Program-made: the position numbers and the translations under genes
In this document: positions 1 to 4,512 of the stretch, in pieces
Position numbering within the stretch: position 1 is the first letter of the stretch
Layout of the letters: each line of letters begins with the position of its first letter
Assembly: GCF_900142415.1 (NCBI RefSeq)
Contig: NZ_FRAU01000001.1
Span: 310,001-374,000 of the forward strand
Direction: 5' to 3'
Length of the DNA: 64,000 nt
Origin: Rhodothermus profundi
Lineage (GTDB): Bacteria; Bacteroidota; Rhodothermia; Rhodothermales; Rhodothermaceae
Notes under the pieces: generated by a model
Database searches by the model: none
Told to the model about the DNA's origin: nothing
What the model saw: only the letters and a program-made list of their open reading frames with translations

Positions 1-1454
1 AACGGAGCGTCGAGCTGATCAAGCGTCCGGCGCTCAAGCTCGCGTTCCAGCTTAACGATATCCTCGATCTGATACAGGAACCACGGATCGATGTAGGTGA
101 TGTCGTGGATTTCTTCGACCGAGGCGCCCAGCCGAAACGCATTGCGAATCTGGAGCGTGCGGTCCCAGTAGGGCTTTTTGAGGCGGGCCCGAACTTCTTC
201 GCGCGTAGGATCCTCGCGGTCGGCTCCCAGACCGGCATAGCCGTTTTCCAGGCTCTGCCAGGCTTTCTGGAGCGCTTCAGGGAACGTGCGTCCAATTGCC
301 ATAACTTCGCCGACCGCCTTCATCTGGGTGGTCAGCTCCTCATCGACACCTTCGAACTTCTCAAAATTCCAGCGCGGAATCTTGACCACCACGTAATCAA
401 TTGAGGGCTCAAAGCAGGCGCTTGTGGTGCCGGTTACATCATTGGGCAACTCATCCAGCGTGTAGCCTACCGCCAGCCGGGCAGCCACTTTGGCAATCGG
501 ATAGCCGGTAGCCTTTGAGGCCAGGGCTGATGAACGCGACATGCGCGGATTAATCTCGACGGCGATCATGCGGCCAGTATGCGGCTCAACGGCAAACTGC
601 ACGTTGCAGCCGCCTGCAAACTTGCCAATGGAGCGCATCATTTTGATCGCCGCATCCCGCATGCGCTGGTACTGCTTATCGGTGAGCGTCTGCGCCGGGG
701 CGACGGTGACCGAGTCGCCCGTATGGATACCCATTGGATCGAAGTTCTCAATGGGACAGACAATGATCACATTGTCATTGGCATCGCGCAGCAGCTCCAG
801 TTCATATTCCTTCCAGCCGTAAACGCTCTCTTCAATGAGCACCTGATGCACCGGCGAGAGCTCCAGCCCGCGCGTTACCTTACGGTCGAACTCCTCCATG
901 GACCAGACGATACCGCCGCCGGTCCCCCCCAGCGTAAACGACGGCCGGATCACCACGGGTAAGCCGCCCAGCTCCTGCAGGATCTCTTTGGCTTCAAGCA
1001 AGCTGCGCGCTGTGCGGCTCCGCGCCTGGTCAATTCCGATCTGCTCCATCAGGTCGCGGAATCGCTGGCGATCCTCGGTGATCTGAATGGCTTCAATGTC
1101 CACGCCAATGATCTCTACGCCCATAGCGTCCCAGAAGCCCTCCTCATGGAGCTGCGCAGCCAGGTTCAAGGCTGTCTGCCCTCCCATGGTAGGCAGCACC
1201 GCGTCGGGACGCTCTTTTTCGACAATGCGCCGAATGGATTCAGGCGTGAGTTCTTGCAAGTAGACCCGATCGGCTGTGATCGGGTCGGTCATGATCGTTG
1301 CCGGGTTCGAGTTGACCAGAATGACTTCATATCCCTCTTTCCGCAACGCCCGGGCTGCCTGACTTCCGGAGTAGTCGAACTCACACGCCTGCCCGATCAC
1401 AATCGGGCCCGATCCGATCAGCAAGATCCGCTGAATGTCGGTCCGCTTTGGCAT
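1..1454 (-). CDS. carB: Carbamoyl-phosphate synthase large subunit, N-terminal 484 residues (cut by window edge)
   Basis: Reading the minus strand from the ATG at 1454 gives [20 protein letters not shown], then [19 protein letters not shown] and [10 protein letters not shown], the standard start of the CarB large subunit. The frame stays open to base 1, so the C-terminal part lies outside the window. The visible part covers the first ATP-grasp (carboxyphosphate) half, including [15 protein letters not shown] and [21 protein letters not shown]. The enzyme makes carbamoyl phosphate from glutamine-derived ammonia, bicarbonate and two ATP in the cytoplasm, feeding pyrimidine and arginine synthesis. 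The gene lies 36 bases downstream of carA and is almost certainly cotranscribed with it. Confidence 0.97.
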
Positions 1455-1490: not shown

Positions 1491-2630
1491 TTATACGCGA
1501 GCGAACGGGGCGGTCGTAACCGGACGGTGGGCCGCCACCAGGGCCAGAAATTCATCAAAGAGATAGCGACTGTCGTGGGGCCCCGGAGACGCTTCGGGAT
1601 GGTACTGGACCGAAAGGCCAGCAAATGATTTGAAGCGCAGCCCTTCAACTGTCTGGTCGTTCAGGTTAACGTGCGACACATCAGCTTCGCGTGGATCAAC
1701 CGACGCAGCGTCCACAGCAAAACCATGGTTCTGCGTCGTGACTTCTACGCGTCCGGTGCGCAAATTTTTGACCGGGTGATTGGCGCCGCGATGCCCCACG
1801 TACATCTTATAAACCTTGAAGCCCAGCGCCAGAGCCATCAGCTGATGCCCCAGACAGATGCCAAAGATTGGCAGGCCTGTCCGAATAGCCGCTCGCACCT
1901 GTTCGATAGCCTGCGGCATGGCCCGCGGGTCGCCTGGCCCGTTTGAGAAGAACAGGCCATCTGGCTCCCAGGCCAGCACTTCATTCAGAGGCGTATAGCC
2001 CGGGAAAACGCGCACCGTGCAGTCCCGCGCCTGGAACATGCGCAGGATGTTCAGCTTGCAGCCATAATCGAAAACGGCGATGCGCGCTCCGGGTCCTGTG
2101 CAAAAGTCGTATGGCTCCTTTGTCATCACATAAGAGGCCAGTTCCAACCCGTTCATCGAAGGCAGGCGTCGCGCCTTCTCCACCAGGCTTTCATCGTCCA
2201 GGTCAATGGAGGAAATGACCGCATTCATGACCCCCTTCGTGCGAATGTGCCGCACCAATCGTCGCGTATCGACACCGGAGATACCTACCAGCTTGTAGCG
2301 TTGCATCCAGGCTTCTAGCGAGCCATCTGCCAGGCGATTGGAGTAGCGATGCGAAAAGGCGCGCACGACCAGGCCAGCGACCATCGGACGGGCTGCCTCC
2401 ATGTCGATGTCCATCACCCCGTAGTTGCCAATGTGGGGATAGGTCATCATCATGATCTGACCGTAGTAAGACGGATCGGTCAGGATCTCCTGGTAGCCCG
2501 TCATGCTGGTGTTGAAACACAGCTCCCCGCCCGTCTCACCACGGTGTCCGATGGCAATGCCCGTCACAACAGTTCCATCGGCCAACGCCAGCTTACAGGG
2601 ATCCGGTGTCGGGTGCAGCATGGGAATCAT
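1491..2630 (-). CDS. carA: Carbamoyl-phosphate synthase small subunit (glutamine amidotransferase)
   Basis: The 379-residue product has the usual CarA length. The N-terminal CPSase domain contains ELCFNTSMTGYQEILTDPSY. The class I glutamine amidotransferase domain follows from about residue 180, with the nucleophile Cys259 in FGICLGHQLMALALG and the His/Glu pair in YHPEASPGPHD near residue 345. It hydrolyses glutamine and passes ammonia to CarB, encoded immediately downstream. The start could be the ATG at 2630 (MIPM) or the next one at 2621; no clear ribosome binding site separates them. A terminator-like hairpin lies about 43 bases upstream of the start codon, which suggests control by attenuation. 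Confidence 0.97.
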   Translation of the reverse strand: MIPMLHPTPDPCKLALADGTVVTGIAIGHRGETGGELCFNTSMTGYQEILTDPSYYGQIMMMTYPHIGNYGVMDIDMEAARPMVAGLVVRAFSHRYSNRLADGSLEAWMQRYKLVGISGVDTRRLVRHIRTKGVMNAVISSIDLDDESLVEKARRLPSMNGLELASYVMTKEPYDFCTGPGARIAVFDYGCKLNILRMFQARDCTVRVFPGYTPLNEVLAWEPDGLFFSNGPGDPRAMPQAIEQVRAAIRTGLPIFGICLGHQLMALALGFKVYKMYVGHRGANHPVKNLRTGRVEVTTQNHGFAVDAASVDPREADVSHVNLNDQTVEGLRFKSFAGLSVQYHPEASPGPHDSRYLFDEFLALVAAHRPVTTAPFARV

Positions 2631-2672: not shown

Positions 2673-2703
2673 TAAAAAAAAACCTTCCCCACATGTGGGA
2701 AGG
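2673..2703 (-). terminator. Rho-independent terminator inside the carAB leader (candidate attenuator)
   Basis: On the minus strand a 7-bp stem (CCTTCCC at 2683-2689 paired with GGGAAGG at 2697-2703) is followed directly by a run of nine T (complement of 2674-2682). It points toward carA and ends about 43 bases before its start. No convincing minus-strand gene lies upstream before the divergent TonB-like gene at 2968, so termination of an unrelated transcript is unlikely. The position is that of a transcription attenuator for carAB, which is an inference. Confidence 0.7.
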
Positions 2704-2705
2704 CT

Positions 2706-2873
2706 TCAGCCGCCACGAAATCGTCGCGTATATAAATGTCCTGTGCCAGAACTTCTCACCATTTGCGATGCTTTCGGCCCGTCAACAGGAGGGCGCGAAA
2801 AAAGGTTTCTGGAAGATACGGCATTTGTCCAGGCAAAACCAGGGGATGCGCCGCTTCTCCCGGCTTTTTTCAT
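2706..2873 (-). CDS. Possible 55-codon leader ORF upstream of the carAB terminator
   Basis: An ATG at 2873 opens a frame of 55 codons beginning MKKAGRSGASPGFAWTNAVS. It is preceded by GGAAGGG five bases upstream, a better Shine-Dalgarno sequence than most genes here have. Its TGA stop at 2708-2706 lies two bases before the first base of the terminator stem, and the corresponding RNA has a run of six U near the middle (complement of about 2799-2804). That is where a translated leader that tunes transcription termination would be. The peptide resembles nothing I recognise and the ORF may be chance, so confidence is low. Confidence 0.3.
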   Translation of the reverse strand: MKKAGRSGASPGFAWTNAVSSRNLFSRPPVDGPKASQMVRSSGTGHLYTRRFRGG

Positions 2874-2967
2874 GGTAGCCCTTCCGGCCTATCTTCTCCG
2901 ATCTGAAGCGCCTCTGAACGGATTGCGCGGATGGCGGTTCAACAGGTGAAAAAATCGCTTACAGCTT

Positions 2968-3645
2968 ATGCGCGCTGTGCGCCGACAGCAAGAACGCGCA
3001 GTTTATTCGCTACGCATGATGGCCAGCCTGGCCTTTACTCTGGGGCTGGTCGTCCTGGTCGTGCGGCTATGGCCGGCCCCCGACCGCACCGCCTTGCCGG
3101 CTGCTGTGTATCGTAGTCTATCCCCCGAAGTGATTGCTCTGGAAGAAGTACTGCCTACCCGTCAGGCGCGCCCGGCTCCTCCTCCACCTGTTCCCCCCCT
3201 TCCTGTCGTCGTGCCGGATGAAGTGCTGCTGGAAGAGGTCAACATTACGGCAGACGCCAATCGTCTCCTCCTGGAGGAAGCAGGCACCGATCCTTTTGCT
3301 GCAGAAGGGGCTCTGGAAGGAACGCTGGCCGCTGCCCCTGCTTTTGAGGTGGGGCCCAAGCCAGTGCGGTTTGTGGAGCCTGAATACACCCGTGCTGCGC
3401 GGCGCGCCCGCATCCGGGCCGAAATTGTGGTCGAGGTGCAGGTAAGCCCTACCGGCCAGGTACTTTCAGCAACAATTGTTGAGCGCTATCTGCTCGCTCC
3501 CTATCGGCAGCGCGTGGACACGCTGGGCTATGGTCTGGAAGAAGCAGCACTGGCGGCTGCGCGGCGCTGGCGTTTTCGTCCGGCCCGTGTGAACGATCAG
3601 CCCGTCGCTAGCTTCACCCGCATCACGTTCAGCTTTGGTCAATAG
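2968..3645 (+). CDS. TonB-like energy-transducing protein
   Basis: The 225-residue product is built like TonB: a short cytoplasmic start, one membrane segment at about residues 17-34 (MMASLAFTLGLVVLVVRLW), a proline-rich stretch at 67-83 (RPAPPPPVPPLPVVVP) and a C-terminal TonB domain from about residue 128. That domain has PKPVRFVEPEYTRAARRARI, VVEVQVSPTGQVLSATI and ARRWRFRPARVNDQPV, the family pattern. TonB proteins pass proton-motive force from ExbB/ExbD to outer-membrane receptors, but no exbB/exbD or receptor gene is nearby, so the partner is unknown. The first methionine is used; the start at 3016 (MMAS) is also possible. The gene diverges from carAB. Confidence 0.8.
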   Translation: MRAVRRQQERAVYSLRMMASLAFTLGLVVLVVRLWPAPDRTALPAAVYRSLSPEVIALEEVLPTRQARPAPPPPVPPLPVVVPDEVLLEEVNITADANRLLLEEAGTDPFAAEGALEGTLAAAPAFEVGPKPVRFVEPEYTRAARRARIRAEIVVEVQVSPTGQVLSATIVERYLLAPYRQRVDTLGYGLEEAALAAARRWRFRPARVNDQPVASFTRITFSFGQ

Positions 3646-3828: not shown

Positions 3829-4512
3829 CTACTTTAACGTTCGGGCCGGTCGTGGATTAAAATACGTGATACCTCCATAACGGCGGCGTTCCAGAATTTG
3901 CCGGATAAGCTCCTCCAGGTCTTCCGGATTTTTGACAAAGTCAATCTGAGCGGCATTCACAATGAGAAGGGGGCCCTTGGTATAGTGGAAAAAGTAGCGA
4001 TCGTATGCTTCGCAGAGCGCCTCAAGATAACTCCGCTCAATCCGCTGTTCGTAGGGACGGCCCCGCCTGCGAATGTTCTCCAGCAGTCGGTCTGGGGTAG
4101 ATTGCAGATAGACGACCAGATCAGGTATCGGGACGTTGGGCTCCATCAGGGTATAGAGCGTTTCATAAAGCTGCAGCTCATCGCCCTTCAGGTTGATGCG
4201 GGCAAAGATGCGGTCTTTGTCAAAGGCGTAATCACTCACCACAAACGGATGAAACAGGTCGCGCAGCATGAGTTGTTTTTGCTGGCGGAAGCGGCTGGCC
4301 AGAAAACTGAGTTGCGTATGAAAAGCCCAGCGTTCTGGGTCTTCGTAGAAACGCGGCAGAAATGGGTTCTCTTCAAATTCCTCCAGCATCAATCGTCCGC
4401 CAAAACGTTCGGCAATCAGCCGGGCCAGGGTGGTTTTGCCCACGCCGATGACGCCTTCAATGACCAGATAGCGTAAATCGTCAGGTAGTTGGATCGTGTT
4501 GGCGGCCCCCAT
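3829..4512 (-). CDS. Deoxynucleoside kinase (deoxyadenosine/deoxyguanosine kinase family)
   Basis: The 227-residue protein has the dNK fold signatures: P-loop GVIGVGKTTLA at residues 20-30, LEEFEENPFLPRFYEDPERW for the nucleoside-binding acidic region, FVVSDYAFDKDRIFA in place of the ERS motif, and an arginine-rich lid, ENIRRRGRPYEQRI. Enzymes of this family phosphorylate deoxynucleosides for salvage, using ATP, in the cytoplasm. The exact substrate cannot be read from sequence. The gene sits 16 bases after folK, an arrangement (folK next to a dNK) common in Bacteroidota, and is followed at once by a small membrane protein gene. Confidence 0.9.
   Translation of the reverse strand: MGAANTIQLPDDLRYLVIEGVIGVGKTTLARLIAERFGGRLMLEEFEENPFLPRFYEDPERWAFHTQLSFLASRFRQQKQLMLRDLFHPFVVSDYAFDKDRIFARINLKGDELQLYETLYTLMEPNVPIPDLVVYLQSTPDRLLENIRRRGRPYEQRIERSYLEALCEAYDRYFFHYTKGPLLIVNAAQIDFVKNPEDLEELIRQILERRRYGGITYFNPRPARTLK

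Follow-up and report, generated by a model that had tools for sequence, protein, structure and literature searches.

The carAB operon of Rhodothermus profundi is preceded by a terminator hairpin that recurs upstream of most carA genes of Rhodothermales, and on the comparison of these leaders we regard the hairpin as very probably attenuating the transcription of carAB. Translation of a short leader has the best support among the candidate modes of control, and we give an even chance to the attenuator being worked by ribosome occlusion, as in E. coli pyrBI. The proposal of attenuation at carAB, made in a preliminary description of this locus, is well supported by comparative anatomy, except for two of its elements, a 55-codon leader peptide and a T6 run as U-rich pause, which did not hold.

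Terminator hairpin upstream of carA

Carbamoyl phosphate synthase catalyzes the common first step toward arginine and pyrimidines. In the window, by which we mean the whole analysed stretch of 64,000 nucleotides, the small (glutaminase) subunit is encoded by carA (1491-2630, minus strand; TIGR01368, 469 bits against a cut-off of 307), the first gene of the operon. The start of carB lies 36 nt beyond carA, and its N-terminal part (3-1454, minus strand; NF003671, 810 bits) forms an open frame that runs off the window. The nearest gene on the other side of the leader (2968-3645, plus strand), which has a match to the TonB C-terminal domain, is divergent, in line with the preliminary description, where no convincing gene had been seen upstream on the carA strand; the terminator should therefore act mainly on RNA started in the carA leader. 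Further along the window, the minus-strand gene at 3829-4512 encodes a deoxynucleoside kinase (PF01712, 140 bits).

The hairpin (2679-2707, minus strand) has the core CCTTCCC-ACATGTG-GGGAAGG at 2703-2683, in which the arms CCTTCCC (2703-2697) and GGGAAGG (2689-2683) enclose a loop at 2696-2690. With flanking pairs the stem reaches 11 bp, 2707-2697 being paired to 2689-2679. A tract of nine T follows (2674-2682, minus strand), as read in the sequence, and the spacer between it and the carA ATG at 2630 is 43 nt, so that the 7-bp hairpin with nine T, placed 43 bases before carA at the outset, is present exactly as described. The isolated hairpin folds with -16.0 kcal/mol, compared with -7.1 +/- 2.35 for its shuffles (z -3.8), and an equally good fold was found in one of 200 shuffles.

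The survey set comprised 110 carA copies of the order with upstream DNA, from 15 families. Conservation in relatives, suggested earlier as a check, was found for the hairpin, which together with a T tract precedes 95 of the 110 copies and is found in 14 of the 15 families. The core stem CCTTCCC/GGGARGG is retained; leader, loop and spacing vary widely. A strict hairpin pattern matches a single site in the 3.14-Mb genome of R. profundi and occurs in 51 of 114 genomes of the order, at carA in 50 of them and at two sites elsewhere, and the reversed control pattern has zero matches in the same 114 genomes. Given one genomic site, the same place across the order and an empty reversed control, we take the terminator ahead of carAB to be a real feature, beyond chance.

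A plain constitutive terminator, serving a small RNA or background transcription while carAB is expressed from its own downstream promoter, is in our view very unlikely. The 43 nt available here, and the ~5-15 nt between the T tract and the start of carA in genus g25 of family f12 and at locus L147, leave little or no room for a promoter, the shorter distance making a second promoter unlikely in the latter cases; moreover, the site is almost exclusive to carA.

The hairpin is absent in all six genomes of family f14, where the predicted transcription start lies 26-34 nt before carA. In family f15, two genomes retain a remnant of the 5' arm, GGCCTTCCC, without a 3' arm; at three loci of one f15 subgroup (L190, L193, and L200) the hairpins before carA are decayed to GGCCTTCCC or GGCCTTTCT, the 3' arm being missing. 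At two other loci (L224 in genome G021 and L225 in G031) the encoded CarA is only 43-45% identical to that of the window, yet a CCTTTCC/CCTTCTC-type hairpin precedes the gene, possibly reflecting gene replacement behind a retained leader or a binning error.

Predicted promoter and probable leader reading frame

Upstream of the hairpin we found a -7 promoter box of the Bacteroidota type, TATCTTCC (2811-2818, minus strand), of which TATCTT is invariant in the genus. It follows the consensus TAnnTTTG, located at -12 to -5, that comes from Flavobacterium (PMC9723704). The position of the box places the probable transcription start in the GAAACC block (2804-2809, minus strand), which is also invariant in the genus. 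The tract TGAAAAAA upstream of the promoter (2865-2872, minus strand), again formed by invariant columns and coinciding with the start of the 55-codon frame of the preliminary description, may be an upstream promoter element, and a better reading of the conserved ATGAAAAAA seems to be an A-tract that precedes the promoter. Throughout the order, with the exception of f14, matches to TTG-n20-TAnnTTTG occur upstream of the hairpin, and the predicted start precedes the hairpin by a median of 106 nt; in some f15 genomes this distance is only 17-29 nt.

Reiterative initiation of the type of B. subtilis pyrG, in which extra 5' G residues would keep the terminator from forming by pairing with its pyrimidine-rich 5' arm, is extremely improbable. 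The pyrimidine-only 5' core would suit pairing with poly-G, and the intervening leader is unconserved, as this explanation allows, but the predicted start sites contain no G run, the start region of the genus being GAAACC.

The 55-codon open reading frame (2873-2706, minus strand) pointed out in the preliminary description, with GGAAGGG upstream and a stop two bases before the 7-bp core, does exist. Its role as the leader peptide was rejected, since its start at 2873 precedes the probable transcription start (~2806) by ~67 nt, and since five of six congeners carry it in disrupted form. Among the six congener genomes, the frame is broken after 8, 8, and 13 codons in three; two near-identical congeners have its counterpart in another frame, which continues through the hairpin, and only one locus (L006) matches it. 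Likewise, the T6 run, earlier taken for a U-rich pause, is present directly after the probable start (2803-2798), and is unconserved. What is kept in the genus is neither the start of the 55-codon frame nor the T6 run, but the last 17-18 codons.

These last codons resemble a short leader ORF (2706-2762, minus strand) that would begin with ATG at 2762 (18 codons) or with the conserved GTG at 2759 (17 codons) and encode (M)VRSSGTGHLYTRRFRGG*. Its stop codon TGA (2708-2706) lies inside the base of the hairpin. Toward its end the frame reads GTG...CGA CGA TTY CGT GGY GGC TGA (..RRFRGG*); this part contains no indels in any of the six distinct genus sequences, the window included, and the stop is retained in five of the six; in the most distant congener (L007) CGT is changed to GAT and the stop is TAA, and in genome G005 the stop is replaced by TGC, so that the frame reads into the hairpin. 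Variable columns are distributed over the three codon positions as 4/3/11 when L007 is left out (11 of 18 in third position, P = 0.002), and as 7/7/11 when it is included (11 of 25, P = 0.09), a modest signal.

Across the order, more genera than expected have a stop codon within the 12 nt that precede the core (24.6 of 43 compared with 16.1 expected, z 2.9), although no such excess is seen in families f7, f11, f13, and f15. The candidate leader peptide of the Salinibacter type shows a codon-position bias of 13/13/26, and a conserved short frame beginning M-Q-E-P-P-L is found upstream of carA at three loci of family f3 (L020, L022, and L025), where it ends before the hairpin. The candidate peptides of other clades share no sequence. 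Among the candidate leader ORFs of f9, f12 g25, and f4 g44 there is no codon-position bias, and a conserved peptide is unsupported there.

Candidate mechanisms of attenuation

In the mechanism that we propose, RNA would start at ~2806 on the minus strand, ~100 nt before the hairpin, and reach the intrinsic terminator before carA. Without interference the hairpin would fold and transcription would end, giving a leader RNA of ~130 nt. A ribosome at or near the stop codon of the leader ORF, at the hairpin base, would cover the 5' arm and prevent the hairpin, and RNA polymerase could enter carAB. Readthrough would then be set by how tightly the ribosome trails the polymerase. The sequence itself shows the terminator with its position and deep conservation, the promoter match, and the frame signal in the genus, from which we infer termination in the cell, translation of the leader ORF, and occlusion as the switch. 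If, as in E. coli pyrBI, the signal were UTP, a shortage of UTP would slow the polymerase and open the operon. We hold UTP to be a doubtful candidate for the signal, because the leaders of the order show no enrichment in U: with the last 10 nt set aside, Rhodothermales leaders contain 19-25% U, and they give no evident sign of a UTP-sensitive pause.

A competing RNA structure was considered as well. Pairing of the leader to the 5' arm of the terminator is weaker than in shuffled leaders (mean z +0.45 over the set), and the consensus fold of the genus retains the terminator. An antiterminator in the leader was thus rejected, and its lack fits ribosome occlusion, which needs none. In E. coli, when a stop codon was shifted toward a terminator, from a distance of 28 nt on its upstream side to one of 5 nt, termination fell from ~90% to <10% (PMC4824070). 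The f15 leaders with only 17-29 nt between predicted start and hairpin are too short for a leader peptide, which counts against occlusion.

These very short f15 leaders instead favor an attenuator read by a trans-acting protein or ligand on the conserved stem (PyrR or an unknown RNA-binding protein) rather than by translation, a possibility that we rate as unlikely. The same possibility draws on the stem itself, as the core CCTTCCC/GGGARGG is conserved beyond the needs of termination. In 70 distinct hairpins the pyrimidine is always on the 5' side in all six core pairs, with swaps among C-G, U-G, and U-A and one broken cell, and the 5' arms at carA are on average 73% pyrimidine; the corresponding value is 46% for a set of twelve terminator-like hairpins taken from the window and from a second stretch, the carA hairpin itself being among the twelve. 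However, drift from C-G to U-A through U-G pairs can by itself maintain this orientation without selection, so that the orientation is not proof of a binding partner; the loops are unconserved, and the stem is different in the sister order. The genome does contain two PyrR-like genes (G000:C6:122741-123232, which scores over the family cut-off, and G000:C4:277760-278215), and no pyrimidine gene was recognized by eye among the neighbors of the former. Against PyrR stand the absence of its binding consensus from 95 leaders and of Rfam matches to PyrR or riboswitch families in the window and in ten carA loci.

The codons CGA CGA TTY CGT before the leader stop raise the question of arginine attenuation, with termination set by ribosome stalling or by an arginine-induced arrest. 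Arginine synthesis is fed by carAB, and peptide ends rich in arginine recur as RRFRGG* in Rhodothermus, RPRRR* or RPCCR* in f12, and RFRI* in f2. Nevertheless, Arg codons across 27 genera are not enriched compared with shuffled leaders (28.4 vs 23.5, z 1.3), for which reason an order-wide arginine attenuation was rejected, and Arg is absent from the Salinibacter-type leader peptide. Control of the trp type would need an antiterminator, and none was found in the leaders. Besides, a stall at the Arg codons would leave the hairpin free and lower carAB expression under arginine scarcity, which is the wrong sign. Altogether we consider arginine attenuation quite improbable.

Leaders outside the order and known regulatory systems

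A sample of 21 genomes from other families of the class represents the sister order. In 18 of them a hairpin AATCCGRC...GYCGGATT-T was found at carA, plus one further site; the same pattern is absent from three Rhodothermales genomes searched. Loci L255-L283, from class members outside the order, are the carriers of this near genome-unique hairpin. In family f16 of the sister order, many leaders carry a -7 box near -80, and in 16 of 21 loci an ATG precedes the hairpin by 31-35 nt; in 19 of 21, an open ATG frame, a candidate leader ORF, runs into the terminator. The last 30 nt of these leaders are 39-47% U with little G, and only in the sister order is a U-rich leader clear. By such features the sister-order leaders appear close in anatomy to E. 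coli pyrL, and the nearly fixed distances between promoter, ATG, U-rich stretch, and hairpin make the idea directly testable. It is improbable in our view, if still conceivable, that a single ancestral translation-coupled attenuator controls carAB class-wide, with its stem, fixed inside each order as CCTTCCC in Rhodothermales and AATCCGAC in the sister order, being read by a specific partner in addition to folding.

Among Bacteroidia (L287-L324), the gene 5' of carA often has an end that by eye resembles that of rplQ, encoding L17, and a terminator of lineage-specific sequence lies between this gene and carA. We rejected the Bacteroidia hairpins as homologues, since they follow the rplQ-like gene and probably terminate that operon.

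Translation in Bacteroidota proceeds largely without Shine-Dalgarno sites, and if the ribosome-occlusion model is true, a pyrBI-type logic would have arisen or persisted in such a phylum. At E. coli pyrBI, a ribosome that follows the polymerase closely keeps the leader terminator from acting (PMC10135430, PMC5021804), and pausing on the U-rich leader depends on UTP (PMC10135430). Both systems have a terminator in the leader of a pyrimidine operon and a leader ORF, here a probable one, that reaches the hairpin. They differ in that the operon here is carAB and that the Rhodothermus ORF ends at the hairpin base, whereas pyrL contains the hairpin; pyrL is described as 49% U, while the Rhodothermus leader is not U-rich, the sister-order leaders being nearer to it.

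The operon carAB stands at the branch point of arginine and pyrimidine synthesis, and its E. coli counterpart, which faces the same double demand, is controlled at initiation (P1/P2, ArgR, and reiterative transcription). According to a review, attenuation is involved neither at carAB P2 nor in the arginine genes of E. coli (PMC6245113). The carA (SRC-12-1) motif of Polynucleobacter is likewise a structured RNA that sits directly 5' of carA and behind a promoter, but is described as beta-proteobacterial, an extended imperfect hairpin with 30 examples, and a possible riboswitch (PMC8632094). PyrR attenuators also act at pyrimidine genes, and PyrR homologues are present in the genome; their binding consensus and antiterminator hairpin set are nevertheless absent here. 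The fungal arginine attenuator peptide, the uORF of CPA1/arg-2 acting by eukaryotic translational arrest, is similar in that a short ORF precedes the gene for the homologous small subunit, and differs both in this mechanism and in its response to arginine, a role that is unsupported across the order. The attenuator of B. subtilis pyrG has a pyrimidine-rich 5' arm. It is another case of attenuation at a pyrimidine gene, where termination is prevented by added G residues (PMC4448216), in contrast to the predicted start site here, which lacks a G run. The element looks like a new instance of an established kind of switch, at an operon for which the open-licence literature yielded no report of it.

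A regulon shared with pyrG or pyrB was rejected, since the carA-type hairpin is absent from the 23 pyrG and pyrB leaders tested, one of which has an unrelated terminator. At one contig of genome G154, identical carA matches lie at both ends (G154:C1:18842-19939 and 3741526-3742623), which is probably an untrimmed circular overlap. Finally, upstream of pyrG at loci L231 and L229, where a terminator is absent, there is a promoter-like TATCTTGG and then, close to the probable start, AGGGCC, which recalls G-run start sites.
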